The notes beneath the pieces were generated by a model. It saw nothing but the letters and a program-made list of their open reading frames with translations, was not told the origin of the DNA and made no database searches. DNA of 64,000 nucleotides from Pseudoclavibacter sp. AY1H1 (GTDB lineage: Bacteria > Actinomycetota > Actinomycetes > Actinomycetales > Microbacteriaceae): assembly GCF_002931055.1 (NCBI RefSeq), contig NZ_PSXX01000001.1, positions 558,001-622,000 on the forward strand, given 5' to 3'. How positions within the stretch are numbered: the stretch's first letter is position 1; each line of letters starts with the position of its first letter. Of the stretch, positions 26,794 through 52,043 are shown piece after piece. The position numbers were made by a program, and so were the translations under genes.

Positions 26794-27848
26794 CGCCACT
26801 GACCGGAATCCCCAGCCCGCCCCTCGAGTGGGCGAGCTTCGAGGTCGGGCCGCTCACGGTGCACCTCTATGCGCTCTTCATCGTGGCGGGCATGATCCTC
26901 GCCGTGCTGTGGACGGACCGACGGCTCACCGCGCGTGGCGGTGAGAAGTGGATCACGGTCGACTTCGCCATCTGGGCCGTGCTGCTCGGGCTGCTTGGCG
27001 CGCGTCTGTACCACGTCTTCACGCATCCCGCCGACTACTTCTTCGAGGGCGCCAACTTCTGGCGCATCTTCTTCATCTGGGAGGGTGGCAACGCCATCAT
27101 CGGCTCCCTCATCGGCGGAGCGATCGGCATCTTCATCGCGAGCCGGATGACGGGCATCCGCATGCTCGCGTTCTCGGACGCGCTCATCCCCGGCCTCCTC
27201 CTGGCACAGGCCGTCGGGCGCCTCGGCAACTACTTCAACCATGAGCTCTACGGCTGGCCCACCGACCTGCCGTGGGGCCTGCAGATCGAGGCGAGCAATC
27301 CAGCCTTCCCCGTCGGCTTGCCTGAGGGCACGCTCTTCCACCCGACGTTCCTGTACGAGATGCTCTGGAACCTCGCGGGCATCGCCCTCATCGTGCTCAT
27401 CGAGCGCATGTTCCGGTGGCGCACGGGCAAGACGCTCGCCGCCTACCTCATCTGGTACGGAACGGGACGCATCTGGATCGAGTCCATTCGCGTCGACTAC
27501 TCCGAGGTGATCCTCGGGATGCGCTCGAACGTCTTCGGGGCCCTGTGCCTCGTCATCGTCGGCATCGCGCTCTTCGTCTACGTCTCACGCCTGCCGGTCT
27601 CGCAGCTGAGCACGAGCGTCTACCTTCCCGGGCGCGATCCGGAGTCCGAGGCAGCCAGGGCCGCTGAGGGCGCTGATGGTTCTGAGGCCGACGAACTCGA
27701 CGGCGACGACGACCTCGACGCCGAGGAGGAAACCTCCACGCAATCTTCGGTTCACGACGAGGAAACTTCCGAAGCCAAGCCTAACTCGGGCGACGTGGAA
27801 AATACCCCTGATGAGAGCGAAGAAATCTCCACGTCCTCGAAGAGCTGA
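26790..27848 (+). CDS. lgt: prolipoprotein diacylglyceryl transferase
   Basis: Membrane enzyme that adds diacylglycerol to the lipobox Cys of prolipoproteins. It has 352 residues. About seven hydrophobic helices fill residues 20-275. The Lgt signature GRLGNYFNHELYG is near residue 145, and ARLYHVFTH and the EGG loop also match. After the last helix a strongly acidic tail of about 70 residues (DELDGDDDLDAEEE and onward) extends into the cytoplasm; such tails are common in actinobacterial Lgt. Coupled to trpA by ATGA. The trp-lgt association is conserved in actinobacteria without an obvious metabolic reason. Confidence 0.95.
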   Translation: MTPLTGIPSPPLEWASFEVGPLTVHLYALFIVAGMILAVLWTDRRLTARGGEKWITVDFAIWAVLLGLLGARLYHVFTHPADYFFEGANFWRIFFIWEGGNAIIGSLIGGAIGIFIASRMTGIRMLAFSDALIPGLLLAQAVGRLGNYFNHELYGWPTDLPWGLQIEASNPAFPVGLPEGTLFHPTFLYEMLWNLAGIALIVLIERMFRWRTGKTLAAYLIWYGTGRIWIESIRVDYSEVILGMRSNVFGALCLVIVGIALFVYVSRLPVSQLSTSVYLPGRDPESEAARAAEGADGSEADELDGDDDLDAEEETSTQSSVHDEETSEAKPNSGDVENTPDESEEISTSSKS

Positions 27849-28036
27849 GGCGAAACAGCCCACCCCTCTCGGGGCTTGCTCGTGCACCTCGAAACACAGA
27901 AGTAACACAGCGGTCGTAATCTGCTGAATGGACCGACGGACGCCTGTAGGCACCCGCCCCGAACGGGCTCCGTCAACATCAGTCTTCTGTCGAGTCCGCC
28001 AAGCGACCCATGGCACCACCGACGAGGGGACGAGTT
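27849..28036 (+). promoter_or_regulatory. lgt-gltB intergenic region
   Basis: This stretch of 188 bases holds a weak hairpin after lgt (AGCCC at 27856 pairing with GGGCT around 27871-27876, or CCCC-TCTC-GGGG inside it) that may end the trp-lgt transcript. A TAATCT hexamer at 27917-27922 is a candidate gltB -10 box. No gene is seen. Confidence 0.35.
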
Positions 28037-31000
28037 ATGACCTCCGCCGCCTTTCCAACGAATGGCTACCCAGCAGCAGCCGGTCTGTACGACCCTGCCA
28101 ACGAACGCGATGCCTGTGGGCTCGCGATGGTCGCCACCCTGCGTGGCACGCCGGGTCACGACATCATCGACCACGCGCTCGACGCGCTCCGCCACATGGA
28201 GCACCGCGGCGCTGTCGGCTCGGATGCGGGCACCGGAGACGGCGCTGGCATCCTGACGGCGATCCCGGACGACTTCTTCCGCGCGGTCAGTGGCTTCGAC
28301 CTGCCTGCCGATGGCCGCTACGCGGTCGGCAACGCCTACCTTCCCGTGGACGCCGACGAGCGGGCCAGGGTCAAGGCTGGCATCGCCAAGCTCGCGGCAG
28401 AAGAGGACCTCCGCGTCATCGGCTGGCGCGAGGTTCCCGTGCAGCCCGACGAGCTCGGCAAGCTGGCTCGGGCCGCGATGCCCGTCATCGAGCAGCTCTT
28501 CGTGCGCAGCGAGCGCCAGAACTTCCGAGGGAACCCACGCAAGGGCGCGTCCCTCGACCGGCAGTGCTACCGGATGCGCAAGCGCGCCGAGCATTCGCTC
28601 GGCGTGTACTTCATGTCGCTCTCGTGCCGCTCGATCACCTACAAGGGCATGGTCACGACCCTGCAGCTGGAGCCGTTCTACCCGGACCTGAGCGATGAGC
28701 GCTTCGCCTCCAAGCTCGCGATCGTGCACTCGCGCTACTCGACGAACACGTTCCCGTCGTGGCAGCTCGCGCAGCCGATGCGCATGATGGCGCACAACGG
28801 CGAGATCAACACGGTTCGCGGCAACCGCAACTGGATGCGCGCCCGGCAGTCGCAGCTGCGCTCCGAGATCCTCGGCGACGTCGCAGACCTGTTCCCGATC
28901 GTGACGGAAGGCGCCAGCGACTCGGCATCCTTCGACGAGGTGCTGGAGCTGCTCACCCTCTCGGGCCGCTCCCTCGCGCACGCCGTGCACATGATGGTGC
29001 CGGCAGCGTGGGAGACCGCAGAGGACCTGAGCGCCGAGGTGCGTGACTTCTACGAGTACCACTCGCTCATCATGGAGCCGTGGGACGGGCCCGCGGCGAT
29101 GGCCTTCACCGACGGCCGCTACGTGTGCGCGACGCTCGACCGGAACGGACTTCGCCCCGGCCGCTTCGTGCAGACAGCCGACGGCCTCATCGTGCTGGGC
29201 TCCGAGGTCGGGGTCGCCAGCCTCGACCCCGCGACCGTCATCCGCAAGGGGCGTCTGCGCCCAGGACAGGTGCTCCTCGTGGACACCGAGGTCGGCCGCC
29301 TCATCGAAGACGATGAGGTCAAGCACGACCTCGCGGAGCTGCAGCCGTGGGGGGACTGGCTCGACGAGGGTCGCATCAACCTCGCCGAGCTCCCGGAGCG
29401 CGAGCACGTCACGCACACTCCGGCCTCCGTCGAGCGCCGCCAGCGCACCTTCGGCTACACCGAGGAGGAGCTGCGCATCCTGCTCGCTCCGATGGCGAAG
29501 AACGGTGCTGAGCCGATCGGAGCCATGGGCACGGACACGCCCATCGCGATCCTCACGGACCGACCGCGGCTCGTCTTCGACTACTTCACGCAGAACTTCG
29601 CGCAGGTGACGAACCCGCCGCTCGACTCGATCCGCGAGGAGGTCGTGACGAGCCTCACGACGAGCATCGGGCCGCAGGAGAACCTCCTCAGCGCCGGCCC
29701 TGAGCACGCGCGTCAGGTCGTGCTGGACTTCCCGGTCATCGACAACGACCAGCTCGCGAAGATCCAGCACATCGAGCAGCGCCCCGGTATCGACGCGGCG
29801 GAGACGCTCCGCGGCTGCTACCGGGTCGACGACGGCGTCGAGGGGCTGCGCAAGCGCCTCGAGGAGCTGTGCGAGGAGGCCGACCGCGCGATCGACGCCG
29901 GCGCTGGCTTCATCGTGCTCTCCGACCGCGACTCGAACCGCGACTACGCGCCCATCCCCTCGCTGCTCATGACGAGTGCCGTGCACCACCACCTGATCCG
30001 CACGGAGCGCAGGATGCGCGTCGGCCTGGTCATCGAGGCGGGCGATGTCCGCGAGGTGCACCACGTCGCAGTGCTGCTCGGCTACGGCGCTTCCGCCGTC
30101 AACCCGTACCTGGCGATGGAGTCCTGCGAGGACATGGTCCGTCAGGGCAAGCTCACCGGTGTCTCCGAGGAGAAGGCAGTCGCCAACCTCATCAAGGCGC
30201 TCGGCAAGGGCGTCCTGAAGATCATGTCGAAGATGGGCATCTCCGCGGTCTCCTCCTACGCGGGCGCGCAGTGCTTCGAGGCCGTCGGCCTCTCGAACGA
30301 GCTCGTCAGCGAGTACTTCACGGGCACGGCGAGCAAGATCTCCGGAATGGGGCTCGAGGGCATCGCCCGCGAGAACCAGCTCCGCCACCGCCACGCGTAC
30401 CCGGCCCAGGCTGCTCCCGCGTCGCACCGCCCCCTCGACATCGGCGGCGAGTACCAGTGGCGCCGTGAGGGGCCACCGCACCTCTTCAACCCGAACACGA
30501 TCTTCCGTCTGCAGCACTCGACGCGCGAGGGCCGCTACGACATCTTCAAGGAGTACACGAAGCTCGTCGACGACCAGGCCGCAGAGACCATGACGCTGCG
30601 CGGGCTCTTCAAGCTCAAGGTGGGCGACCGGACTCCAGTCCCGATCGACGAGGTCGAGCCGGCTTCCGAGATCCTCAAGCGCTTCCAGACCGGTGCCATG
30701 AGCTACGGCTCCATCTCGAAGGAAGCGCACGAGACGCTCGCCATCGCGATGAACCGCATCGGCGGCAAGTCGAACACGGGTGAGGGTGGCGAGGACGTCG
30801 AGCGCCTCCTCGACCCCGAGCGACGCAGCGCCATCAAGCAGGTCGCCTCGGGCCGGTTCGGCGTCACGAGCATGTACCTGACCCACGCGGATGACATCCA
30901 GATCAAGCTGGCGCAGGGCGCGAAGCCGGGCGAAGGCGGGCAGCTGCCTCCGACGAAGGTCTACCCCTGGGTGGCTCGGACGCGCCACGCGACACCTGGC

Positions 31001-32605
31001 GTGGGTCTGATCTCCCCGCCTCCTCACCACGACATCTACTCCATCGAGGATCTCAAGCAGCTGATCTTCGACCTCAAGCGCGCGAACCCGTCGGCGCGCA
31101 TCCACGTGAAGCTCGTGAGCGAGAACGGCATCGGCGCGGTTGCCGCCGGTGTGACGAAGGCGCTTGCCGACGTCGTCCTGGTCTCAGGCCACGACGGCGG
31201 CACGGGCGCCTCGCCCCTCAACTCCCTGAAGCACGCGGGAACCCCGTGGGAGCTCGGCCTTGCCGAGACGCAGCAAACGCTCATGCTCAACGGGCTGCGC
31301 GACCGCGTGGTCGTGCAGGTGGACGGTCAGCTCAAGACGGGCCGCGACGTCATCGTCGGCGCCCTGCTCGGCGCCGAGGAGTTCGGCTTCGCGACCGCGG
31401 CGCTCGTCGTCTCCGGCTGCATCATGATGCGCGTCTGCCACCTCGACACGTGCCCGGTCGGCGTCGCCACGCAGAACCCTGAGCTGCGCGCCCGCTACAC
31501 GGGCCAGGCCGACCACGTCGTGAACTTCTTCGAGTTCGTCGCGCAGGAGGTCCGCGAGTACCTCGCGGAGCTCGGCGTGCGCTCACTGGACGAGATCATC
31601 GGGAAGCGCGAGCTCCTCGAAGTCGACGAGGCGATGCATCACTGGAAGACCGAGGGGCTCGACCTCTCGCGCGTGCTCACCGGCCACGAGTTCGGCGATG
31701 CGCCGACTCGGAGCCTTGTCACCCAGGAGCACGAGCTCGACCAGCACTTCGACCAGAAGCTGCTCACGCTCGCCGAGCAGGCGCTCGAGCGCGGCGAGTC
31801 CGTCAAGGTGTCGATGGACGTCATCAACACCGATCGCGCCGTCGGCACGATGCTCGGGCACCACGTGACCCTCAAGCATGGTGAGCACGGCCTGCCAGCA
31901 GGCACGATCGACATCGAACTGCGGGGGACCGCAGGGCAGTCGCTTGGCGCGTTCCTGCCGAACGGCATCCGCATCCGGCTCGTCGGCGACTCGAACGACT
32001 ACGTCGGCAAGGGGCTCAGCGGTGGCGAGATCATCCTCAGGCCCGACGAGCGTGCGCCGTTCAAGTCGCACGAGAACGTCATCGCGGGCAACGTCATCGG
32101 CTACGGCGCGACGAGCGGAACCATGTTCCTGAGCGGCGTCGTCGGCGAGCGCTTCCTCGTCCGCAACTCCGGCGCCACCGCAGTGGCTGAGGCCGTCGGC
32201 GACCACGCGCTCGAGTACATGACCGGCGGACTCGCCGTGATCCTGGGGGAGACGGGCAAGAACTTCGGTGCGGGCATGTCCGGCGGCATCGCCTACGTGC
32301 ACAAGCTCGACCCGAAGCTCGTCAACCCCGACATGGTCTCGACGGGGGAGCTCGGCCTGACGACGCTGACCAGCGCCGATGCCGACATCCTGCGCGACAT
32401 CCTCGAACGCCACTACGCGGAGACCGACTCGCAGCTCGCTCGCGAGATGCTCGAGGACTTCGACGCGGTGTCGAAGGAGTTCACGAAGGTGCTCCCGCGT
32501 GACTACGCCAAGGTCACCGAGATCCGCAACGCCGCCATCGAACGTGGTGGCGACCCCGATGACAGCACGACCTGGCACGAGATTCTGGAGGCAACCCGTG
32601 GCTGA
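28037..32605 (+). CDS. gltB: glutamate synthase large (alpha) subunit
   Basis: Alpha subunit of NADPH-GOGAT: glutamine plus 2-oxoglutarate to two glutamates. It has 1522 residues. The Ntn glutaminase nucleophile is Cys27 (DACGLAMVATL) after a 26-residue propeptide. VHSRYSTNTFPSWQLAQPMRMMAHNGEIN completes that site. The FMN synthase domain has FQTGAMSYGSISKEAHETL and GGKSNTGEGGED. The 3Fe-4S cysteines are codons 31418, 31436 and 31451 (CIMMRVCHLDTC, spacing C-x5-C-x4-C, canonical). The GXGXG domain follows. ATG 28037 has GAGGGG 7 bases upstream; ATG 28010 lacks one. Overlaps gltD by 8 bases. Confidence 0.97.
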   Translation: MTSAAFPTNGYPAAAGLYDPANERDACGLAMVATLRGTPGHDIIDHALDALRHMEHRGAVGSDAGTGDGAGILTAIPDDFFRAVSGFDLPADGRYAVGNAYLPVDADERARVKAGIAKLAAEEDLRVIGWREVPVQPDELGKLARAAMPVIEQLFVRSERQNFRGNPRKGASLDRQCYRMRKRAEHSLGVYFMSLSCRSITYKGMVTTLQLEPFYPDLSDERFASKLAIVHSRYSTNTFPSWQLAQPMRMMAHNGEINTVRGNRNWMRARQSQLRSEILGDVADLFPIVTEGASDSASFDEVLELLTLSGRSLAHAVHMMVPAAWETAEDLSAEVRDFYEYHSLIMEPWDGPAAMAFTDGRYVCATLDRNGLRPGRFVQTADGLIVLGSEVGVASLDPATVIRKGRLRPGQVLLVDTEVGRLIEDDEVKHDLAELQPWGDWLDEGRINLAELPEREHVTHTPASVERRQRTFGYTEEELRILLAPMAKNGAEPIGAMGTDTPIAILTDRPRLVFDYFTQNFAQVTNPPLDSIREEVVTSLTTSIGPQENLLSAGPEHARQVVLDFPVIDNDQLAKIQHIEQRPGIDAAETLRGCYRVDDGVEGLRKRLEELCEEADRAIDAGAGFIVLSDRDSNRDYAPIPSLLMTSAVHHHLIRTERRMRVGLVIEAGDVREVHHVAVLLGYGASAVNPYLAMESCEDMVRQGKLTGVSEEKAVANLIKALGKGVLKIMSKMGISAVSSYAGAQCFEAVGLSNELVSEYFTGTASKISGMGLEGIARENQLRHRHAYPAQAAPASHRPLDIGGEYQWRREGPPHLFNPNTIFRLQHSTREGRYDIFKEYTKLVDDQAAETMTLRGLFKLKVGDRTPVPIDEVEPASEILKRFQTGAMSYGSISKEAHETLAIAMNRIGGKSNTGEGGEDVERLLDPERRSAIKQVASGRFGVTSMYLTHADDIQIKLAQGAKPGEGGQLPPTKVYPWVARTRHATPGVGLISPPPHHDIYSIEDLKQLIFDLKRANPSARIHVKLVSENGIGAVAAGVTKALADVVLVSGHDGGTGASPLNSLKHAGTPWELGLAETQQTLMLNGLRDRVVVQVDGQLKTGRDVIVGALLGAEEFGFATAALVVSGCIMMRVCHLDTCPVGVATQNPELRARYTGQADHVVNFFEFVAQEVREYLAELGVRSLDEIIGKRELLEVDEAMHHWKTEGLDLSRVLTGHEFGDAPTRSLVTQEHELDQHFDQKLLTLAEQALERGESVKVSMDVINTDRAVGTMLGHHVTLKHGEHGLPAGTIDIELRGTAGQSLGAFLPNGIRIRLVGDSNDYVGKGLSGGEIILRPDERAPFKSHENVIAGNVIGYGATSGTMFLSGVVGERFLVRNSGATAVAEAVGDHALEYMTGGLAVILGETGKNFGAGMSGGIAYVHKLDPKLVNPDMVSTGELGLTTLTSADADILRDILERHYAETDSQLAREMLEDFDAVSKEFTKVLPRDYAKVTEIRNAAIERGGDPDDSTTWHEILEATRG

Positions 32606-34058
32606 CCCGAGAGGATTCCTCACCAATCGCGAACGCGAGCTCCCCAAGCGTCGACCCGTTCCCGTGCGCATCATGGACTTCAGCGAGGTCTACGACCCGC
32701 AGGAGCCCACCCAGCTGCGCCGGCAGGCCGGACGCTGCATGGACTGCGGCGTTCCGTTCTGCCACCAGGGCTGCCCGCTCGGCAACATCATCCCCGAGTG
32801 GAACGACCTGACGTTCCGCGGTGACATGGCGGGCGCGAGCGAGCGCCTGCACGCCACGAACAACTTCCCGGAGTTCACGGGACGCCTGTGCCCGGCCCCG
32901 TGCGAGTCGTCGTGCGTGCTCGGCATCAACCAGCCGGCCGTCACGATCAAGCGCGTCGAGCAGTCCATCGCGGACACCGCCTTCGCCGAGGGCAACGTCC
33001 GTCCGCACCCGCCCGAGCGCCTCACGGGCAAGACGGTCGCCGTCGTCGGATCGGGGCCAGCGGGCCTCGCCGCCGCCCAGCAGCTGACCCGCGCCGGCCA
33101 CACGGTCGCGGTGTTCGAGCGTGACGACCGCATCGGCGGGCTGCTGCGCTACGGCATCCCGGACTTCAAGATGGAGAAGTCCGTACTCGATGCTCGTCTC
33201 TCGCAGATGCGCGCCGAGGGCACTCGCTTCCGCACCGGCATCGAGATCGGTCGCGACATCACGTGGGACAACCTCCGCCAGCGCTACGACGCCGTCGTGG
33301 TCGCCACCGGAGCGCTGGTCCCGCGCGATCTCCCCGTGCCGGGCCGCGAGCTCAAGGGCGTCCACTACGCGATGGACTTCCTGACGCAGTCGAACCGCGT
33401 GGTCGCTGGCGACGACCTCGCCTCGCAGATCCACGCCGAGGACAAGCACGTCATCGTCATCGGCGGTGGAGACACCGGTGCAGACTGCATCGGCACGTCG
33501 CACCGCCAGGGCGCGGCCTCGGTCACGAACCTCGCCATCGGCAAGGAGCCGCCGACCGAGCGTCCCGCGCATCAGCCGTGGCCGACGACGCCGACCCTCT
33601 TCGAGGTCTCGACCTCGCACGAGGAGGGCGGCGAGCGCGCCTTCCAGGCGTCCACGGTCGAGTTCATCGGCGACGAGTCCGGTCGGGTCCGCGCGATCCG
33701 GCTCGCCGAGACCGAGTTCCGCGCCGACGGCTCGCGCGGCCCGAAGGCGGGCACGGAGCGCGAGCTTCCCGCCGACCTGGTGCTGCTGGCCATGGGCTTC
33801 ACGGGCCCGGAGCGGCACACGATCGAACCGCAGCTGCAGCTCCCGTTCACCTCACGGGGTGCCCTCGACCGCACTGCCGAGTACGAGACGGAGCTCCCTG
33901 GAGTGTTCGTCGCGGGCGACGCGGGCCGCGGCCAGTCGCTCATCGTCTGGGCGATCGCCGAGGGACGTGCGGCAGCCGCCTCCGTCGACCGGTATCTTGA
34001 ACAGTCGACGGAGCTTCCGGAGCCGATCCTCGCCACCGAGCGCGCGATCTCCCTCTGA
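32598..34058 (+). CDS. gltD: glutamate synthase small (beta) subunit
   Basis: Takes electrons from NADPH through FAD and two 4Fe-4S clusters to GltB. It has 486 residues. The N-terminal cysteine-rich region includes RCMDCGVPFCHQGCPLGN and GRLCPAPCESSCVLGI, which bind the clusters. The FAD Rossmann motif is VAVVGSGPAGLAAAQQL (near 150), the NADPH motif VIVIGGGDTGADC (near 293), and GVFVAGDAGRGQSLIVWAI closes the flavin site. GTG 32598 overlaps the gltB stop. This is the only gltD in the window and belongs with the plus-strand gltB. Confidence 0.97.
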   Translation: MADPRGFLTNRERELPKRRPVPVRIMDFSEVYDPQEPTQLRRQAGRCMDCGVPFCHQGCPLGNIIPEWNDLTFRGDMAGASERLHATNNFPEFTGRLCPAPCESSCVLGINQPAVTIKRVEQSIADTAFAEGNVRPHPPERLTGKTVAVVGSGPAGLAAAQQLTRAGHTVAVFERDDRIGGLLRYGIPDFKMEKSVLDARLSQMRAEGTRFRTGIEIGRDITWDNLRQRYDAVVVATGALVPRDLPVPGRELKGVHYAMDFLTQSNRVVAGDDLASQIHAEDKHVIVIGGGDTGADCIGTSHRQGAASVTNLAIGKEPPTERPAHQPWPTTPTLFEVSTSHEEGGERAFQASTVEFIGDESGRVRAIRLAETEFRADGSRGPKAGTERELPADLVLLAMGFTGPERHTIEPQLQLPFTSRGALDRTAEYETELPGVFVAGDAGRGQSLIVWAIAEGRAAAASVDRYLEQSTELPEPILATERAISL

Positions 34059-34114: not shown

Positions 34115-35572
<1,458 letters not shown>

Positions 35573-40794: not shown

Positions 40795-41874
40795 TCACGC
40801 AGCCGGCAACGACTCCAGCATGTGCTCCCAGGCGCGATGCACATCGGCCGAGACCAGCCCGAGCTGCGTCACCACGGCGACGCAGCGGGCGCGCTGATCG
40901 TAGAGCTCCAGCGTCGACGTGCGCCCCCGCGGCCCGCAGGCCGCCACGAGCAGACACGAGCGCACCGCGCCGAGATCGACCTCGATGACGCCATCGCCAA
41001 GCGAGACGACCAGGAGCGCGCCGACGCGTTCCACGAGGTGCACCAGCCCCGCGCCCAGCTGCAGCACCGCACTCGACGGAACACCCACGCAGACCGGCAA
41101 CCCGACCGAACTCAGGTGCTCGAACACCGCGGGGAGCAGCGAGGGATCCACGAGGCGGCTGTTGCCGACGCCACCGACACCCCAGCCAGAGCGAGCAGCG
41201 TTCCCGCGCACCAGCGCGGCGTGTCGATCGGACCCACCCGCATCGAGGATCGCATCCAGCTGCGCGAGCTGATCGCCGTCACGCCAGTCCACCTCAGCCT
41301 CCCTGGGCAGCTGCAGGTTGCGCAGCTGCGCGTCGCTCGGTGGCCGAGAACGTCCGAGGCTCGCGAGCAGCCCGGCGTCCTGGGCCGAGTGGACAAGCAC
41401 CCGATGCACGAGGCGCCCGTCGCTCGAATAGACATACAGACTGGGGAGCGCGCCCTGCACGCCCTCCTCGTGGGCGACCACCGCGACGCCGAGCGACGCC
41501 GGACGAACCCGCAACGTGATCCAGGCGGACGGCGCGCGCAGCGCCCGACCACACGCCGTCGGCAGGTCGTAGCTGCCGAACTGGTGGATCGTGCACGCGC
41601 CATTGCTGGTGGTCGCCGTCGCCGTGCCGAACCCGACAAGACCGTAGGCGAGGGCCTCCGGCGACAGCTTCACCTTGCGGAGCATTGTGTGCGGCGACGA
41701 CAGCAGCCGATCGAGCGTCCCAGCGTTGAGCGCGCTCACCTGCCGGGAGTGGGCCGCGCCGACTGCGCCATCCCGCCCGAGACCTCGGAGCCCACCGCCG
41801 CGACGCCGCGCGCACGGGCAGTTCCCGCTCGCCCCGCAGACCTCATCTCGGCCCGCGGTGTCCTCCGGCAGCAT
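40795..41874 (-). CDS. divergent HemS/HmuS-like heme-protein homologue
   Basis: Protein of up to 359 residues with two repeats resembling HemS/HmuS/ChuS heme-handling proteins. First repeat: ATATTSNGACTIHQFGSYD and SLYVYSSDGRLVHRVLV (compare RNEYAVHE and FFDxxGDAVxKVY). Second: LPVCVGVPSSAVLQLGAG, then RTSTLELYDQRARCVAVV (compare MVFVGNRGCVQI and SLELFD). The segment DWRDGDQLAQLDAIL aligns by eye with WRAMTDVHQFFTLL, so the heme-iron His of HemS is Ala here. The N-terminal 45 residues have three Cys and may not be translated; a GTG near residue 46 is an alternative start. It starts 3 bases after the diflavin reductase stop. Confidence 0.6.
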   Translation of the reverse strand: MLPEDTAGRDEVCGASGNCPCARRRGGGLRGLGRDGAVGAAHSRQVSALNAGTLDRLLSSPHTMLRKVKLSPEALAYGLVGFGTATATTSNGACTIHQFGSYDLPTACGRALRAPSAWITLRVRPASLGVAVVAHEEGVQGALPSLYVYSSDGRLVHRVLVHSAQDAGLLASLGRSRPPSDAQLRNLQLPREAEVDWRDGDQLAQLDAILDAGGSDRHAALVRGNAARSGWGVGGVGNSRLVDPSLLPAVFEHLSSVGLPVCVGVPSSAVLQLGAGLVHLVERVGALLVVSLGDGVIEVDLGAVRSCLLVAACGPRGRTSTLELYDQRARCVAVVTQLGLVSADVHRAWEHMLESLPAA

Positions 41875-41877
41875 GGC

Positions 41878-43614
41878 TCAGTACACGTCCCTCACGTAGC
41901 GCTTCTGGCGCTTCAACGCGGCAACGTACTCTGCCGCGCCTTCAGCCGTCACTCCTCGCTCCTGCGCGACCACCGCGTGGAGGGCGTCGTCGACGTCTCT
42001 CGCCATGCGCGATGCGTCACCGCAGACGTAGAAGTGCCCACCCTCCTCGAGCCAGGCGTAGAGCTCGGCGCTGTGCTCGAGCATCCGCGTCTGCACATAG
42101 ATTTTCTCCGCCTGGTCGCGCGAGAACGCCAGGTCGAGGCGGTCGAGGACACCGCGCTCGGTGAGCCCCGCGAGTTCCTCCTCGTAGATGAAGTCGCTGT
42201 CGCGGTGCTGGTCGCCGAAGAGCAGCCAGTTGCGTCCGGATGCGCCGCGCGCCTCACGCTCGTGCAGGAAGCCGCGGAACGGGGCGATCCCCGTGCCTGG
42301 GCCGACCATGATCATGGGGGCGTCGTCATCCTCAGGCACGCGGAACGCCGCGTTCGGCTGCAGGAACAGGTGCACGGGGTCGAGGTCGCCGACACGGTCC
42401 GCGAGGAACGTTGAGCACACGCCGCCGTACCGGCGGGCCTCGGTTCCGTACCGCACCGAGGCGACGGTGAGGTGGATGCGGTCCGGGCTGGCGAGCGGGC
42501 TCGACGAGATCGAGTAGGCGCGGTGCTGCATGGGCCGCAGCAGCGACGCGAACTCATCTGCGGTGAAGCTCACTCCCTGCGCAGCCCGGAGCACGTCGAG
42601 CGTGTCCCGGCCCCACAGCCAGCTGTCCAGCTGAGCCTTGTCGCCGCGCTGCACGAGCTCCGCGACGGCTCCGCTCGGCTCCCGAGCGGAGAGCTCCGCG
42701 AGCAGGTCCTTCGAGGGGGCCGTGATGTCGAGCTCTCGCTCGAACGCCGTGCGCAGCATCGAGCCGCTCTCGAGCGCTTCGTCACCGGAGAAGCCGAGGT
42801 GGCCGAGCAGCTCGTCGACGAGACCGGGCTCGTTGACCGGCACGACCGCGAGGGCGTCGCCCGCCGCGTACGTGATGCCGCTGTCGCCGAGATCGAACTC
42901 GTAGTGGCGGATCTCCTTCGAGCTTCGTGGCCCGGAGAGGATGCGGTTGACGGCGAGGCGCGACGGGTACGGCGTCTTTTTGTTCCACGGCGAGCGCACT
43001 CGGGCCGGCGCGGCGGCAGCGGCTGGCGCTGGAGCGGCGGTGTTCGGCTGGAGGGCCGCGAAGTGCTCGACCACCTCCGCGATCCACTCGGCGGCCGCAT
43101 CCTCGTAGTCGACGTCGCAGTCCACGCGCGGCACGACACGCGTCGCCCCGAGCTGCTCGAGGCGCGTGTCGATGAGCTTCCCGGCCTGGCAGTAGTCGTC
43201 GTAGCTGCTGTCTCCGAGCGCGAGGACCGCGAACTTCGTCGACTCGAGGCGCGGAGCACCGTCAGCGTTCAGCTCTTCCCAGAAGAGCTCGGCGTTGTCC
43301 GGCATCTCACCCTCGCCGTAGGTGGACGTGACGACGACGATGTTGCGTTCGCCGTTCAACGCCTCGGGGGAGACCGAGTCGAGCGGGGCGAGCGTCGCCG
43401 CGAGGCCTGCAGCTCGGGCCGCAGCCGCGAGGTCCTCAGCCACGAACTCGCAGTTCCCGGTCTGCGTGCCGATGAGGATCTCGAGCGTCAGCGTCGCGGC
43501 CTGAACCTCCTTGTCGGCGGTGGGGATCGCGGCGAGTCCCGCCATGAACCCGGAGAGCCATGCCTGCTGCTCCCTGGTGAAGGGGGCGTCGACGGGGATG
43601 AACGGCGCGCTCAT
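41878..43614 (-). CDS. CysJ-like diflavin reductase
   Basis: NADPH-FAD-FMN electron transfer protein of 578 residues, like the alpha subunit of sulfite reductase. A flavodoxin domain (about 38-185) has [20 protein letters not shown] and [13 protein letters not shown]. An Ala/Pro linker leads to the FAD domain, with [17 protein letters not shown] and [11 protein letters not shown]. The NADPH domain has [33 protein letters not shown] and the aromatic C-terminus KRYVRDVY. No cysI or nirA hemoprotein is nearby. Its ATG overlaps the stop of the second gltB by four bases, so the two are translationally coupled, and it probably supplies electrons to GltB2, to the HemS-like protein, or to both. Confidence 0.88.
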
Positions 43615-46600
43615 GCGAGGCCACCCGCCGTCGCGGCCGTCGGCTGCTGACGCTTCTCGGTGACGACGAGCTCGCGGGCGATGTCGACCATCGCCGCGGT
43701 CGCGAGGATCTCGTCCGTGCCCACCGACTGGAGGAGCCGGCGGTTCTTCACGTTCTGGTGCATGATCCACCCCGTCGTTCCTGGCGCGTCGATGCTGCGC
43801 ACGTTGCGCAGGCGGAGGGCGTCCTTGTAGTCCTCGAGGCGCTTCGCGGCGATGAGAGCAGCGAGCTCGGCGTCCTCGAACCGGTCGAGTTCACCGCGCA
43901 GGTACTTGTTGACGCGCTGCATGACGAAGAAGTCCTCGGTGAGGATGAGCTTCCGGACCGCGTCGACCACCCTGGGGTCGTCTGGTCCGCTGGCGTCTGG
44001 CACTCGGGTGAGCGCGATGTCCTGCGAGATGTTGAGCACCGCGTAGGAGGCGAGCAGGGCGAACCTGTCGTCACGGTCGGACTCCGAGCCGCCGGGGGTG
44101 CGCCCGCCGATCACCGGGTGACCGCCACGGTAGGCCTCCTTGAAGAGGCGGATGCGCTGGGTTGCGATGGAGGTGGAGAGCTCGTCCAGCAGCTCCTTGC
44201 GTCCCTTCGCGGCGAGGATCTTGTCGGCGTCCTGGTAGAGCAGGAGCGCCCGCGGCATACCGCAGAAGAACCTGCTGCGCTCGGACTCCCAGTCGCGGAG
44301 GATCTGCGCCGCGAGGGGCGAACCGGTCGCGTCGAGGTGCCACTGCAGGAGGAGCTTGACCGCGGCCTCGTGGAAGTCGCCGTGGCTGGTGTCGGTGATG
44401 GGGAACACGAGCAGGGAGTCGGCGCTCACGTTCTCGCGCGTCGAGCCGTCGGCGTCGTACTGGTAGACGAACCCGCCGCTCATGCCGTTGCCGAGGCCCT
44501 TGCCCGCGCTGCCGAGATTGAGGACGGCCCCGTTGGTCATGTACTCGCAGCCGAAGTCGCCGATGCCCTCGACGACCGCTGTTGCGCCGGAGTTGCGCAC
44601 CGCGAAGCGGTCGCCCGCCTCGCCCTGCACGAACGTGCGTCCGCCCGTCGCACCGAAGAGCGCGAAGTTGCCGATGAGCACGTTCTCGCCGGGCTCCGAG
44701 CCGCCGCCGCCGGGGGAGAGCACGACGATGGTTCCGCCGCCCTGGCTCTTGCCGACGCCGTCGTTCGCGGTTCCCGTGTGCACGAGGCGCATGCCGTCGT
44801 TGCTGAAGGCGCCGTAGGACTGTCCGGCGGATCCCTGCGTCGTGACGATGATGCTGCCGTCCACGAGCGAGCGCCTGCCTCGCTCGTCCTCGACGACTGC
44901 GGGGAGCCCTGCGACCGTCTCGGCATCGAGCTCGTAGTTGAGCATCCGCTCGATGTCGATCGACAGCTGACCGCCGACCGACTTGAAGCGGTTGCCCATC
45001 TCGACGCCTTCGATGAGGATCGACGGCTCTGCTCGGTCGACGAGGGCGGCCCGGATCTGCTCGACGAGGGAGTCGTCGATGCTGTAGTCCTTCTCGAGGT
45101 AGATGGGGTTGGCGACGATCTTCTCGGGAACCTTCGCGAGCATGTCGCGAACGTCGAGGTCGCCGACGCTCGCGGGGTGCGCGAGGAGCTGCAGCAGGTC
45201 GCCGCGCCCTCGTGCCTCCCCGAGCGAGCGCAGCCCCAGCGAGGCGAGGATCTCCCGCACCTCGTGCGAGATGTTGAGGAGGTACTGGGCGAGGGCGCGC
45301 GGGTCGCCGTCGAACACCTCGGGGTTGGTCGTGAGTCCGGCGGGGCACTTGATGTTGCAGTTCTTCGCCATGACGCAGCCGAGCATCATGAGCGCTGTCG
45401 TGCCGAATTCGAAGCTGTCCCCGCCGAGGAGCGCGGAGGTCACGACGTCGCTTGCCATCTGGTGGGCACCGGAGCAGCGCAGGACGACCTTCTGCCTGAG
45501 TCCGTTCGCGAGGAGCGCCTGGTGGACTTCAGCGACGCCGATCTCCGCCGAGCGTCCCGCGTACTTGAGGCTCGTGACGGCGGCCGCCCCCGTACCTCCC
45601 GTGTTGCCGGCGACGTTGATCACGTCGGCGCCCGCCTTGGCGACGCCGACGGCGATCGTGCCGATGCCCTCCGACGAGACGAGCTTCACGACGACCCGCA
45701 CCCGGGCTGCCTTGCAGTCGTGGATGAGCTGCGCGAGGTCCTCGATGGAGTAGGTGTCGTGGTGCGGCGGCGGCGAGACGAGCTCGACGCCTGGCGTCCC
45801 GCCGCGGGCCGCGGCGATGTCGACCGTGACCTTCGGCGCCGGCAGCTGGCCGCCTTCGCCGGGCTTCGCGCCCTGCCCGATCTTGATCTCGAGCTCCTGC
45901 AGCATCGGGTCGGCGAGGTAGCCGGCCCAGATGCCGAAGCGGCCGGACGCGAACTGCTTGATGCGCGAGCCCCGGATCGTGTTGTAGCGGGTGATGTGCT
46001 CGCCGCCCTCGCCGCAGTTCGACATGCCGCCGACCATGTTCGTGCCGTGCGCGACGGACTCGTGGGCGGTCGCGACGAGCGCACCGTGGCTCATGGCGCC
46101 GGATGCGAGGGTGCGAGCGATCTCGTGCGCGGGCTGCACCTCGTCGAGCGAGATGCTGTCCGGCGCCGTCCTGAGCAGGCTCAGGATGCTCGGTGCGCCC
46201 GGGGCGACGCGCACCTGGAGCTTCGAATCCGTCGCGGTCGTCTCGGTGATGGCGTTGCCGTCGAGGGCCGTGAGGACCTGCGCGAGCGCGTCGTAGCGGG
46301 TCGCTTCGCCGCCGAGGGGGCCGGTGAGCTTCAGCTCGTAGGTGGAGTTCTCCGTGTGCTCGATCTCGAGGCCGCGGACGCGGACGTCGCTGTTGCCCTC
46401 GAGCGAGAAGCGGCTGAGCTCCCGCGCGAACTCGGAGGGCGTCGAGGCGAGGCGGACGTCTGCGGGCAGCGAGAGCACGTCGCGGAGCGCCGAGGGGCGC
46501 CGCGTGCGCTCCTGGATGGTGTTCGTGACGAAGTCCCGGTAGCCGGGGGTGATCTCGAACGCGTCGATCTGCGCCGGCGTGAGCGCGCCGTATCCGCTGT

Positions 46601-49190
46601 AGGTGTACGCCTTGTCGTCGAGCCCGAACGCGTCGCCGAGCTGGCCGAGGGTGAGGAGTCGCAGCGAGTCGTGCCCTGGGTGCGGTTCGTCGCTCGCGGC
46701 GGGCGCTTCCGGCGCCTTCGTGGTCTCGAGGATGCGCGGCTCCTCGGTCATGTCGATGAACCCGCGCACCGCGGTGGTGCCGAACGAGTGGCCGGCGCCT
46801 TCCTGGCGCTCCTTGAAGAGGCCGAGGAGGGGGATCTGCTTCTCGTCGGCGACCGCGACGGCCCGCTCGTGCCACTCGGCGACCGCGAGGGCGATGCGCT
46901 CGAAGCGCACGCCACCGACTGGGGCGGCGAGGTGGGGGAAGTAGTCGGCGAGGACCGGGTCCTTCGTGTCGAGGTAGTTGGGCTCGAAGAACTCGCCGCC
47001 GATGTAGCTCTCGACGGTGCACAGGCCGACACGGCCCATGGTCTTCATGAGCGACTTCTCGGCGGCCTTCGCGAAGCGGGCCACGGCGAGGTCCGTGTCC
47101 GTGATCGTGTCGATCGAGGCGGCGCCGCTCGGGTAGCGCTCCTCGGCGCGCAGGCGCACGCAGAGCGGGTAGACCGCGGCGGCGCCGAAGCCGAGCGCGG
47201 CGGCGATGTGGTGCGAGGAGGGCAGCTGGCCGCTCTCCGCGATGATCGACACCCGCAGGCGCAGGCCCTCGCGGATGAGCCGCTGGTTGACGGCCGCGAT
47301 GACCAGGATGAGGGGGATCGCGGCCAGCTCGCGCGACACGTTGCGGTCGGTGAGCACGGCGATGCCGCCCTGGGCGCGCGCGAACGTGGTCACGGCGTCG
47401 CACACGCGCTCGACGGCGTCGCGCAGCGAGGCGGCGTTGGCGGGGGCGTCGCCCTGCACGGGCGTGTAGAGGATCTCGAAGCGCTCGAGCGGCGCGAGGC
47501 GCTGCTCGCGGAGCGCGACCATGTTGAGGTGGCTGAGGATGGGCGAGGGCACGACGATCTGCCGCGTCTGGTTGCCGCCGTCGGGCTTGGCGCCGAGTGC
47601 GACGCGCAGCGTCATGCCGTCGGCCTCCCGGATGCTGTCGAGCGGCGGGTTCGTGACCTGCGCGAAGCGCTGCGAGAAGTACTTCGCGAGACCGCCCTCC
47701 TGGTCGGAGAGCGCGTTGATGGCGTTGCCGTAGCCCATGGCGGAGATGCGCTCGGTGCCGTTGGCGAGCATCGGGTCCATCATGAACTTGAAGCTCTCCT
47801 GGTTCAGCGAGTACGCGACGTACCTGCCGGCGGGGGAGAGGTCCCCGTCGTAGCCGAGCGTGTTGCTTCCCCGGTCGATCTCGGGCAGCTCGATGTCCTC
47901 GATGTTGACGCGCGCGGCTTCGAGGTCCGCGCTGTAGTCGCGCCGGAGCGCGAGCTGCTCGAGCGCCTCCCACGTGCGGAAGCTGCGCCCCTGCGTGTGG
48001 TCGAAGTAGAGCATCCCGCCCGCTTCGATGCGCCCGCGGCGCACGATGCTGCCCGGTGCGAACTGGATCTGCCCGGCCTCGGAGCTCACCACGAGGTACT
48101 CGTCGGTCTCGACGGTGCGCAACGGGCGCAGCCCGAGGCGGTCGAGCCGCGCGCCGATGATGTCGCCGTTGCTGAAGACGAGTGCTGCCGGTCCGTCGTT
48201 CTTCTCCTCGTAGAGGGAGAAGAACTCGAGCATGTCCCGGACCTCCGGGGTGAGCGTGCGGTCGTTCTCCCACGCCGGCGGCATGGTCGAGACGACGGCC
48301 TCGACGAGCTCGAGCCCGTCGTCGAAGACGCGGCTCTGCAGGGTCTGGTCGAAGCGGCTGCTGTCCGACTGCCCAGGTGGATGCACGATGACGCGTCCCC
48401 GCGCGGTCGCGAGCGCGTTCTCGGAGAGGCGGTTCTTGCGGTCGGTGTTGAGCTCACCGTTGTGCGCGAGCATGCGGAACGGCTGCGCCATGCTCGGGTG
48501 CGGCTCCGTGTTGGTCGAGAAGCGCGTGTGGAAGAAGAGCGTGCGAACCGACTGGCGCTCGTCGAGCAGGTCGGTGAAGTACGGGATGACCTCGTTCGAG
48601 TTGAGGCGGCCCTTGAGCGTCTGCGTGCGGGCGCTCAGCGACAGGGGGTAGAGGCCCTGGAGCGCGGCGTTGGAGTAGGCGATGCCCTCGATGTCGAGGA
48701 GCGCGGCGTTGGCCGCGGCGTCCATCTCGGCGCGGCTCCAGCCCTCGGCCGCGACGAAGATCCACTGGACGATCGGCAGCTGGTAGTGCGCCGCGGCGGG
48801 GCGCGCGACGGTGGCGTCGACGGGCACGTCGCGGACGAGGATCGGCTCGATGCCGTGCGCGCGCAGCGTGCTGGAGATGAGCTCATGCGCCACGTCGAGC
48901 TGCTCGACGTCGCTCGGCATGAAGAAGTTGCCCACGCCGAAGAGGCCCGACTCGAGCTCGCGCCCGACGAGCGAGCTGAAGAACTCGACCGACAGGTCGA
49001 CGTTGATGCCGGCGCCGTCGCCGACGCCTTCGGCGGACATGCCTCCGCGGTGGGGAATCGCGCAGAGCGCCTCGTTTCCGAGCCGGATCACATCATGGTG
49101 CTGCACGCCGTCCTTGCGCGTGATGAAGCCGACGCCGCAGTCGCTCTTCTCGAGCTCGGGACGGTACAGACCAACGGTTTTTTGCGACAC
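43611..49190 (-). CDS. second, enlarged glutamate synthase large subunit-like protein
   Basis: GltB paralogue of 1859 residues, against 1522 for the gltB at 28037. The glutaminase nucleophile is Cys18 (KSDCGVGFI), and [29 protein letters not shown] is intact. FMN domain: [17 protein letters not shown] and [12 protein letters not shown]. The Fe-S cysteine codons at 45375, 45357 and 45345 read [11 protein letters not shown], spacing C-x5-C-x3-C, one residue shorter than usual. An insert of more than 100 residues precedes the FMN domain, and about 185 residues follow the GXGXG domain. GTG 49190 has GGAGG 7 bases upstream. No gltD follows; a diflavin reductase is coupled by ATGA instead. Confidence 0.88.
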
Positions 49191-49314
49191 GAAGATGCCT
49201 CCAAGGGACAGCAGCGAGGGGAAAGGCGACGCGAACACTGCAACATTGGAGGTTTCGTCTGCGGGAGTCGTCACTTGGTGCGGTGCGGGGTTCCCAGCGG
49301 CATAGCGGTATACG

Positions 49315-49333
49315 TACGGTAAGGGTTGCCTAA
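49315..49333 (-). promoter_or_regulatory. DtxR/IdeR-type iron box upstream of the gltB2 operon
   Basis: Read on the minus strand, TTAGGCAACCCTTACCGTA matches 16 of 19 positions of the DtxR/IdeR consensus TWAGGTWAGSCTWACCTWA. It lies about 125 bases before the gltB2 GTG. TATACC at 49312-49307 just after it is a possible -10 box, so a bound iron regulator would cover the promoter. The rest of the gap 49191-49464 holds no gene. Confidence 0.55.
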
Positions 49334-49921: not shown

Positions 49922-51766
49922 TCACTCGCCGTGACTGCGCCTCCGCCTGAGGAGCAGCATGGCTCCCAGCCCGAGGAGTGCCGTCGCGCCGAGAAGCCCC
50001 GGCCCGAGGGTGTCAGATCCCGTCGACGCCAAGGTTCCCTGTTCTCCTGCCTCGGGCGTCGTGCCGTCTTCGACGGTGACCATAGTCGGCGTTCCGGGCG
50101 GCGTCTGCGATGGCGCGTCTGTAGCGCCTGGAGAGGACATCGGCGGTGTGGCTGAGGGCGCCGGCGATGTCGTGGACGTTGGAGTCGGTGTTGGGTGCTG
50201 CGTGGAAGGTGCGACGGACTGCGTGGGGACAGGCAGCCCAGTCGAAGGATCGGTGGGTCCGGCCGTGGACGAGGCTGTCGGCGCAGGTGTCGGTGCGACG
50301 GTCTCCGTCGGCGACGGGCTCGCCGTCGGAGAAGGCGCCGCGCTCTCCGTCGGTGAGGGCGTCGCGGTCGCGGTCGGCGGGGTCGCAGTCGGGATCGCGG
50401 TCGCGGTCGCAGTGGGGGTCTCGCTCGCAGTCGGCGTCGCGGTCGCAGTCGGCGTCGCGGTCGGCGACGGGGGCGCGGTCACCGTCGGCGAGGGTGACCG
50501 CGTTGGAATGGGTGCGCTCTGGTCGAGGACGATCATCGGTGGCAGCCCGGCAATGATGGGATGGTCTGATGACAGCGTCGTGACGTTGCCGGACTCGTCC
50601 GTGAACGAAGCTCCGACAACTCGGTACTCGCCTGTCGACCACGCAGGAGACCCGGGACTGAGGGGAGGCATAGGCTGATACACCTTCGCACCGGCGGACC
50701 CGTAGATGATGTCGCCCAGCCGGTCGCGGTCGTTGCCAGCGATCTCATAGCGCTTTCCCCACTCGGCGTCCAGGTAGAACGTGGCGTCCACGAGCGCGCT
50801 CTCATCGCGGATCGTCCAGTTGATGAGCTCGACCTCGTCGCCCATTCGGATTGTTGACTGCTCGAATCCAGCCGAGAGCAGCTCCGGTGCGGTGACGTCT
50901 GGTCCGCCAGCGTCGACAACCGTGAAACTCGCCGCAGAAGCCAGTGCGTCGCTGTTGGCCGCCGTGGCGACAGGGCTGGCGCTCCCATGCTCGTCTTCCG
51001 AGAACACGCTGAGCACGCGGTACTCCCCAAGCGCCCAGGTGGAGTTGTTGACGGTGAGTCGCAGCGACCCGGAGACGAGGTCTCCGTCCCTGGAAGTGGT
51101 GTTTCGGTCGAAACCTCGAGCCTCGTATTCGCGCCCGTCGGGGCCGACGATGGTCATTATCAGCCTGACGACTCGGCTCGATTCACGCATCGTCCAGTTG
51201 AACCAGATGACGTCGCTCTGGCGGACTTCGTCCGGCGCGACCACCTCGAGGGCGACGAGCTCGGGGTATTCCTGGTCCCCGTCCGTGCCGACGTCGATCT
51301 GGAGCCTGGGCAGGGCCTGAATGATGGGACTGAAGTCCTCGGACGCGTATCCGAATACGCCCAGCACATCAAAGAAATAGAGTTCGCTTACCCGCCATTC
51401 GCCTGCCGCCCACTCTGAACCGCCAGTCGTGCACGTTGTCGTGCCGCTGACGATGTCTCCGTCTCGCACCGCGACGACAGCATCGAACTGTCCACATGAC
51501 TTACTTTCCCGAGACGAAGTCCCCTCCCCGGTCTCAAGAGCGATGCCGCCTATTCCGATGTCGTGGGGATGGCGCACGCTCCAGTTGATCCGGATCTCGT
51601 CCCCGCCTCCGACAGTCGTGGGCGTGACGAGCTCGGCGGATATGAGTTCGGGCCTGATGTCGAACTCGTTGCCTTGGTCCGCAGCCGCCGGAAGGGCTGG
51701 CAGCAAGACCACAGAGAACAGCAGCGCGGCGAGGCAGGCGCAGAGGAGGGCAGAGAGCTTCTTCAT
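49922..51766 (-). CDS. cell-surface protein with three Ig-like repeats, Pro/Thr/Ser stalk and LAxTG anchor
   Basis: Secreted wall-anchored protein of 614 residues. Signal peptide: MKKLSALLCACLAALLFSVV and onward, cleavage near AAADQ. Three repeats of about 110 residues each (PELISAELVTP, PELVALEVVAP, APELLSAGFEQ) end with W-x-x-GEWRV or GEYRV motifs and look like beta-sandwich domains. A stalk of about 160 residues is rich in Thr-Ala-Pro-Ser. The C-terminus has LASTG, a class E type sortase motif, then a hydrophobic helix and RRRRSHGE. ATG 51766 has GGAG upstream; 11 extra N-terminal residues are rejected because they precede the signal peptide. No sortase gene is nearby. The ligand is unknown. 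Confidence 0.8.
   Translation of the reverse strand: MKKLSALLCACLAALLFSVVLLPALPAAADQGNEFDIRPELISAELVTPTTVGGGDEIRINWSVRHPHDIGIGGIALETGEGTSSRESKSCGQFDAVVAVRDGDIVSGTTTCTTGGSEWAAGEWRVSELYFFDVLGVFGYASEDFSPIIQALPRLQIDVGTDGDQEYPELVALEVVAPDEVRQSDVIWFNWTMRESSRVVRLIMTIVGPDGREYEARGFDRNTTSRDGDLVSGSLRLTVNNSTWALGEYRVLSVFSEDEHGSASPVATAANSDALASAASFTVVDAGGPDVTAPELLSAGFEQSTIRMGDEVELINWTIRDESALVDATFYLDAEWGKRYEIAGNDRDRLGDIIYGSAGAKVYQPMPPLSPGSPAWSTGEYRVVGASFTDESGNVTTLSSDHPIIAGLPPMIVLDQSAPIPTRSPSPTVTAPPSPTATPTATATPTASETPTATATAIPTATPPTATATPSPTESAAPSPTASPSPTETVAPTPAPTASSTAGPTDPSTGLPVPTQSVAPSTQHPTPTPTSTTSPAPSATPPMSSPGATDAPSQTPPGTPTMVTVEDGTTPEAGEQGTLASTGSDTLGPGLLGATALLGLGAMLLLRRRRSHGE
50370..50470. repeat. tandem repeats encoding the Pro/Thr stalk
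   Basis: The stalk coding sequence contains low-complexity tandem repeats. The 18-mer CGCAGTCGGCGTCGCGGT occurs twice without a mismatch at 50426-50443 and 50444-50461, with partial copies to the left. In the minus-strand reading it encodes repeats of alternating Thr, Ala and Pro. Copy number may vary between strains. Confidence 0.6.
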
Positions 51767-51792
51767 GTGTCTCCGTCGACAGAGGGCGGGGG

Positions 51793-51812
51793 TCCGCAAA
51801 GACTAGTGCGGA
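51793..51812 (-). promoter_or_regulatory. promoter of the surface protein flanked by an inverted repeat
   Basis: On the minus strand TAGTCT (51805-51800) is a good -10 box about 33 bases before the ATG. It lies between TCCGCA (51793-51798) and TGCGGA (51807-51812), a perfect 6-8-6 inverted repeat that could be an operator. The remaining bases to 51908 hold no gene. Confidence 0.4.
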
Positions 51813-51953: not shown

Positions 51954-51960
51954 AGAACCG

Positions 51961-52043
51961 TGCCGGCTGTGGGATTCGAACCCACACGCCCTCTCGGACA
52001 GAGCATTTTGAGTGCACCGCGTCTGCCATTCCGCCAAGCCGGC
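51961..52043 (-). tRNA. tRNA-Leu (anticodon CAA)
   Basis: The 83-base class II tRNA is read on the minus strand. The 7-bp acceptor stem GCCGGCT pairs with AGCCGGC, the discriminator base is A, and no CCA is encoded. The anticodon loop CTCAAAA gives anticodon CAA, reading the UUG codon. A long variable arm (TGCTCTGTCCGAGAGGGC region) is typical of tRNA-Leu, and the T loop GTGGGTTCGAATCCCAC is standard. UUG also serves as a start codon of several genes here (metK, trpC, pyrF), though initiation uses the initiator tRNA. Confidence 0.96.

Follow-up and report, generated by a model that had tools for sequence, protein, structure and literature searches.

How does a glutamate synthase large subunit receive electrons when the gene behind its own encodes a diflavin reductase and not GltD? 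Glutamate synthase, which is rich in iron, is one of the main gates through which nitrogen is assimilated, and the question is raised by three genes on the minus strand of the stretch analysed here (the window, 64,000 nucleotides of the 4.2 Mb genome of Pseudoclavibacter sp. AY1H1): gltB2, dfr and a gene for a HemS-like protein, in that order. The sequence-only reading of this DNA had described the arrangement, and re-reading of the open reading frames (ORFs) bears it out, as Pfam and NCBIfam do its protein labels; gltB2 and dfr overlap by four bases (43611-43614), and three bases (41875-41877) lie between dfr and the HemS-like gene. The likely gltB2 start is a GTG at 49190, with GGAGG at 49202-49198, and the right end of the unit, 49333, is the edge of an iron-box-like palindrome.

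43611-49190, minus strand: gltB2, glutamate synthase large subunit paralogue, 1859 amino acids, likely GTG start at 49190
41878-43614, minus strand: dfr, CysJ-like NADPH diflavin reductase (DFR), 578 amino acids, with flavin mononucleotide (FMN) flavodoxin, flavin adenine dinucleotide (FAD) and NADPH domains
40795-41874, minus strand: gene for a HemS-fold protein, 359 amino acids, heme-ligand histidine position replaced
49315-49333, minus strand: degenerate iron-box-like palindrome TTAGGCAACCCTTACCGTA, DtxR/IdeR-type, 13/19 to the consensus

GltB2 and DFR probably constitute a variant glutamate synthase that depends on NADPH and has DFR, which is free of iron, in place of GltD; in many lineages it would serve as an isozyme for iron starvation. 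The class II amidotransferase domain of GltB2 would free ammonia from glutamine, and the ammonia would be channelled to the FMN domain, where 2-oxoglutarate would be reductively aminated to glutamate. Electrons would pass from NADPH to the FAD and then the FMN of DFR, and from there to the 3Fe-4S cluster of GltB2, with DFR standing in GltD's place. With a DtxR/IdeR-type box before it, the operon would be switched on in iron starvation, giving many lineages an iron-sparing isozyme switch. Canonical GltBD holds about 11 Fe per protomer in one 3Fe-4S and two 4Fe-4S clusters, GltD being an 8-iron subunit; GltB2-DFR would need about three iron atoms. We infer the catalysis, the electron path, the regulation and the role of the HemS-like protein from the evidence set out below.

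If true, the exchange of iron-rich GltD for a flavoprotein without iron would mirror, at the level of an enzyme, the ferredoxin-flavodoxin switch; it would tie iron economy to nitrogen economy in actinobacteria, would mean that a diflavin reductase is able to drive GltB chemistry, and would provide a function open to testing for two genes whose annotations, glutamate synthase and sulfite reductase, are probably made one by one. Searches among open-access papers turned up no description of a GltB2-DFR(-HemS-like) system, in line with the earlier remark that no described system of this composition was known to the reader; glutamate, sulfite and HemS are absent from the main text of the DmdR1 regulon paper (PMC12161575).

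The gltB2-dfr pair and the probable electron donor

A scan of genome contigs with the GltB2 C-terminal extension confirmed 84 relatives, of which 80, all actinobacterial by title, were kept. The sequence-only reading had treated the three genes as a set; in these loci GltB2 and DFR are neighbours in 80/80, and the HemS-like gene accompanies them in 39/80. The loci represent 17 named genera (Streptomyces, Curtobacterium, Mycolicibacterium, Mycobacterium, Mycobacteroides, Corynebacterium, Plantibacter, Nocardia, Pseudoclavibacter, Microbacterium, Tsukamurella, Herbiconiux, Mycetocola, Tessaracoccus, Micropruina, Arenivirga and Pseudactinotalea), and in two loci, L096 and L129, DFR is cut by a contig end. 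The four-base overlap of a start codon with the gltB2 stop recurs in 69 of the 78 testable loci. Co-occurrence of GltB2 and DFR is far beyond chance, and the two are apparently a dedicated, translationally coupled pair. The window's GltB2 has a near relative in Pseudoclavibacter sp. AY1F1 (96% over the C-terminus), and close GltB2 proteins (E = 0) occur in only 4 of 396 order-level genomes, the three besides its own having 70-72% identity; these four genomes also have the DFRs most like the window's (60-64% outside its own genome), each adjoining GltB2.

When neighbouring ORFs were clustered over the 80 loci (with annotation by eye, and with many spurious GC-rich frames among the ORFs), no cluster beyond the three genes reached more than 16/80. 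No siderophore or heme-uptake context is conserved in this clustering, and a larger conserved cluster around the unit was rejected. With no other conserved neighbour, the unit therefore looks like a movable module of two or three genes.

DFR matches Flavodoxin_1, FAD_binding_1 and NAD_binding_1 in Pfam and carries FMN motifs (TQTGN, STYGEG), an FAD motif (RAYSISS) and NADPH motifs. These motifs fit NADPH-FAD-FMN electron transfer. The FMN-FAD-NADPH architecture is shared with CysJ and with the reductase part of actinobacterial nitrate reductase fusions, as are the N-terminal PFT..QQ.WL.G motif and the C-terminal YVRDVY with CysJ-type reductases; the likeness to CysJ also shows in a match to the CysJ equivalog model TIGR01931, which reaches 586.3 bits, below the cut-off of 668.15. 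DFR differs from CysJ in that sub-threshold score, in the lack of a CysI found in its own genome, and in forming its own clade with GltB2: 82 GltB2-linked DFRs separate from 23 other actinobacterial diflavin reductases with FastTree support of 1.0, the comparison set being 23 of 26 other diflavin reductase loci, fetched from the order. The nearest relative not linked to GltB2 that was found in the order appears to be the fused reductase domain of a nitrate reductase.

A separate protein of 399 amino acids in Tsukamurella sp. 8F (L108:3715-4914) resembles DFR minus its flavodoxin domain; its gene is two genes away from a canonical gltB, and the GltB2 operon follows a few hundred bases downstream.

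The claim that the trio lacks its usual partners holds in part. No GltD adjoins GltB2 and no CysI was found, but a complete gltBD lies in the same window (28010-34058):

28010-32605, plus strand: canonical gltB1 of the same genome, used for comparison
32598-34058, plus strand: canonical gltD, start approximate and set by eye; N-terminal region rich in Cys, as two 4Fe-4S clusters would lead one to expect; used for comparison

The only NIR_SIR protein found in the genome is by eye NirB, so DFR stands without CysI there. A NIR_SIR search of Mycetocola reblochoni gave no match. On these two results the reading of DFR as part of a sulfite reductase was rejected.

Mycetocola reblochoni also bears on GltD. 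It is one of two genomes found without GltD, the other being Streptomyces sp. GQFP, and GltB2 is its only full-length GltB; gltB2-dfr is kept. The window has the order trpB, trpA and lgt (24722-27536), gltB1-gltD and pyk (34121), and in M. reblochoni trpB-trpA-lgt-pyk are contiguous on one contig, with no N bases and no gltBD between them. This natural loss of gltBD argues that GltB2-DFR works without GltD. Since the pair was kept after the loss, replacement of GltD is, together with the DFR motifs and the missing CysI, the best reading. The electron path from NADPH through the FAD and FMN of DFR to GltB2, proposed earlier in place of GltD, thus gains support from a dedicated, coupled pair, from the motifs, from the lack of CysI and from the M. 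reblochoni case.

GltB2 compared with known glutamate synthases

Four features of GltB2 enter the comparison:

49137-49139, minus strand: Cys18, expected class II glutaminase nucleophile
46191-46775, minus strand: clade-specific insert, about residues 806-1000, between the central and FMN domains; a gap in canonical GltB
45345-45377, minus strand: 3Fe-4S cysteine motif C-x5-C-x3-C (residues 1272, 1278 and 1282)
43614-44228, minus strand: clade-specific C-terminal extension, about residues 1655-1859, predicted helical

GltB2 has the Pfam domains GATase_2, Glu_syn_central, Glu_synthase and GXGXG, and both of its halves align, at 714-785 bits, with the sequences of five solved glutamate synthases. 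Cys18 aligns with Cys1 of 1ea0, and CGVGF is present in 72 of the 80 picked GltB2 ORFs; also retained in the alignments are the N-G and D residues, the FMN/2-oxoglutarate segments and the three cluster cysteines. The GltB domain set, the glutaminase Cys and the substrate motifs by which an NADPH glutamate synthase was recognized here are thus all found in GltB2.

With the bacterial NADPH-dependent GltBD (1ea0, 6s6s, 7mfm) GltB2 shares domain order, the glutaminase Cys, the FMN/2-oxoglutarate motifs and three cluster cysteines, and it scores 761-785 bits against four solved sequences. It differs in its partner, DFR and not GltD following it in 80/80 loci, and in its cluster motif, C-x5-C-x3-C in 80/80 clade members, which is one residue shorter than the canonical C-x5-C-x4-C of the genome's own gltB1 and the five solved sequences. 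It is also longer, at 1859 residues against about 1500; about 150 of these lie in the insert and about 200 in the helical C-terminal extension. A Pfam search gave no match for either region. The extension is helical in structure prediction, with fair confidence; the 50 matches listed by Foldseek for the model of the catalytic half comprise glutamate synthases and, at weak scores, chiefly other enzymes with an FMN barrel, with nothing informative on the extension.

The two clade-specific regions, the iron box and the patchy distribution (4/396) would also suit a GltB2-DFR that uses another keto acid than 2-oxoglutarate as its amination substrate, for example in siderophore or specialised metabolism. 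The substrate-region motifs of GltB2 are near or identical to those of GltB, and the surroundings of the unit are unconserved, the largest other ORF clusters covering 16/80 loci; this function is improbable.

Ferredoxin-dependent glutamate synthase works without GltD, and GltB2 shares the core of that enzyme (1llw, 1ofe) at 714 bits. GltB2 might then be ferredoxin- or flavodoxin-dependent and DFR a general reductase: no GltD adjoins it, and the flavodoxin-like domain of DFR could dock at the ferredoxin site. The ferredoxin loop is a hallmark of the ferredoxin-dependent enzyme. In the alignments GltB2 has no insert at the place of this loop, the region being even shorter than in NADPH-GltB, and a ferredoxin-dependent reading was disfavoured on that ground; the operon, moreover, carries a dedicated NADPH reductase, which adjoins gltB2 in 80/80 loci. 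Dependence on ferredoxin or flavodoxin is very improbable.

The putative iron box

All box scores count matches to the DtxR/IdeR consensus. The window's box scores 13/19, which no other place on either strand of the 64 kb reaches. Sites of at least 14/19 lie upstream of gltB2 in 32 of the 72 scored loci (8/80 were left unscored), as against 3/3600 first-order Markov resamplings, and the reversed consensus gave 0/72 at that threshold in the same upstream regions; a separate count found 33/78 loci against 5/1560 simple shuffles. Boxes of at least 14/19 occur in several families, in Streptomyces, mycobacteria, Nocardia, Corynebacterium, Microbacterium, Herbiconiux and others. Upstream regions of canonical gltB1 in two genomes score 11/19 and 10/19, the chance level.

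In the window's own genome two sites differ from the consensus at no more than three positions, and because both lie just upstream of genes that by eye are iron-siderophore-binding-like, the consensus is probably this organism's iron box. The link to an iron box made in the sequence-only reading has statistical support across genera but is weaker in its own genus, and we infer iron control of the operon in many lineages. M. reblochoni, which has lost gltBD, is also without a box, as would be expected if GltB2-DFR became its only glutamate synthase; the case is intriguing and single. Box-less lineages such as Curtobacterium retain GltD.

Several observations count against a variant glutamate synthase under iron control. 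Iron control is not universal, since no box of at least 14/19 is found in Curtobacterium (0/14), Plantibacter (0/4), Pseudactinotalea (0/2), two further Microbacteriaceae (0/2), Mycobacteroides (0/1), Mycetocola (0/1) or Tessaracoccus (0/1), and two Pseudoclavibacter loci score just 13 and 12 of 19. Related loci are not independent of one another, and neither are the box counts. The window's box is absent from the sites of its genome within three mismatches of the stricter consensus; a looser pattern recovers it, together with a single further site, close to a gene for an oxidoreductase. The 80/80 adjacency comes from a scan by two short GltB2 peptide patterns that may have missed distant forms, and the catalytic half of GltB2 is modelled too poorly for conclusions (mean predicted local distance difference test score, pLDDT, 63.6). 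M. reblochoni has glutamate dehydrogenase homologues. Streptomyces sp. GQFP was set aside as a second case of gltBD loss and carries little weight, since what it lacks is a larger block that takes in a flanking VIT-type gene and one pyruvate kinase; it has a NIR_SIR protein of 565 amino acids. Lastly, of the genomes behind the 80 loci 50 were sampled, and in 48 of them GltD scores above its curated cut-off; where GltD is retained GltB2 could pair with it in vivo.

This prevalence of GltD invites the view that GltB2 is an ordinary paralogue borrowing canonical GltD, with DFR serving another acceptor such as nitrate reductase. The relatives of DFR lend that view some substance, 17 of the 23 others sitting in frames of 1318-1466 amino acids and several of the 23 having nitrate-reductase-like sequence upstream (by eye). 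It is unlikely, given that M. reblochoni retains gltB2-dfr without GltD, that adjacency is strict and accompanied by overlap, and that the GltB2-linked DFRs form a separate clade.

The other match to the looser pattern, at L143:3479-3494, lies about 25 bases upstream of a gene for a thioredoxin-reductase-like FAD oxidoreductase.

The HemS-like protein

The third protein matches Pfam HemS (PF05171) modestly, with 32.3 bits against a cut-off of 24, and its predicted structure has the full two-repeat HemS/PhuS/ChuS fold (pLDDT 88.3; Foldseek E 2e-18, with matches to 4mf9, 2j0r and 1u9t), so that fold and Pfam family agree. The genome search with PF05171 failed to recover the window's gene although its protein matches; presence in other loci was scored with a profile made from trimmed proteins. 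By that measure a HemS-like gene lies directly behind dfr in 39/80 loci, at spacings that range between 8 bases of overlap and a gap of 6 bases (counted from the first possible start), and was not found in 41/80, two of these 41 being cut by contig ends. With the HemS profile, the fetched surroundings of the three order-level GltB2 relatives gave no HemS-like gene either.

The protein shares with HemS/PhuS/ChuS the two-repeat fold and arginines at the R102 and R209 positions, invariant among the homologues at the first and present in at least 90% at the second. It differs in the axial histidine: at the position of His196 the 40 aligned HemS-like sequences have A, T, D, G, S or Q in 40/40. In HemS, His196 is the axial heme ligand, and R102 and R209 also have heme roles. 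A histidine stands one residue further on in 11/40, the mycobacterial and Nocardia forms, and not in the window's protein; a shifted heme ligand is possible in those 11. It differs further in that no heme-uptake neighbours were seen to be conserved and in an N-terminal cysteine cluster, three or four cysteines falling within the first 45 residues in 38/40 homologues:

41812-41838, minus strand: N-terminal Cys cluster of the HemS-like protein (C13, C19 and C21)

Presence of the HemS-like gene tracks the iron box. Over 70 loci, 23 have both, 29 neither, 10 the HemS-like gene only and 8 the box only (Fisher p 9e-5, uncorrected for phylogeny). This association, the HemS fold and Pfam match, and the homology of DFR to cytochrome P450 reductase are what a heme-iron release unit would lead one to expect, in which DFR, as cytochrome P450 reductase does for heme oxygenase, would feed a HemS-like protein that degrades heme in iron starvation, GltB2 being a bystander or having another role. 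The distribution speaks otherwise: DFR-GltB2 persists in 80/80 loci while the HemS-like gene is not found in 41 of them, the axial histidine is replaced in 40/40 (though with a histidine at the next position in 11/40), and Pseudoclavibacter RFBB5 has only a 45-residue C-terminal HemS stretch. Heme release as the purpose of the unit is fairly unlikely.

With a gene not found in 41/80 loci and its histidine position replaced throughout, the part of sensor, assembly factor or further electron acceptor that the sequence-only reading had offered the HemS-like protein is not established. Beside a GltB2-DFR glutamate synthase it is most likely an optional accessory, either a regulator tied to heme or redox state or another protein that draws electrons from DFR; it may act in heme sensing, in heme turnover with DFR electrons, or in tuning GltB2. 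A more far-reaching proposal is tentative and somewhat doubtful: a further class of glutamate synthase with a dedicated iron-free NADPH diflavin reductase as donor, an actinobacterial iron-starvation isozyme in which a HemS-fold subunit would couple nitrogen assimilation to the heme or redox state within one complex.

In Pseudoclavibacter sp. RFBB5 the short HemS-like stretch (L053:12635-12769; 73% identity) lies directly behind DFR and looks like the remnant of a recent loss of the gene in a near relative.

Elsewhere in the window, ARAGORN predicts a tRNA-Val (34162-34234, minus strand), which is doubtful in that it falls within pyk (34115-35572) on the opposite strand, and a tRNA-Leu (51960-52043, minus strand). 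A gene upstream of the operon (49922-51799, minus strand) encodes a Pro/Thr/Ser-rich product without a Pfam match, which ends in LASTG, a hydrophobic stretch and RRRR and by eye resembles a sortase-anchored surface protein.

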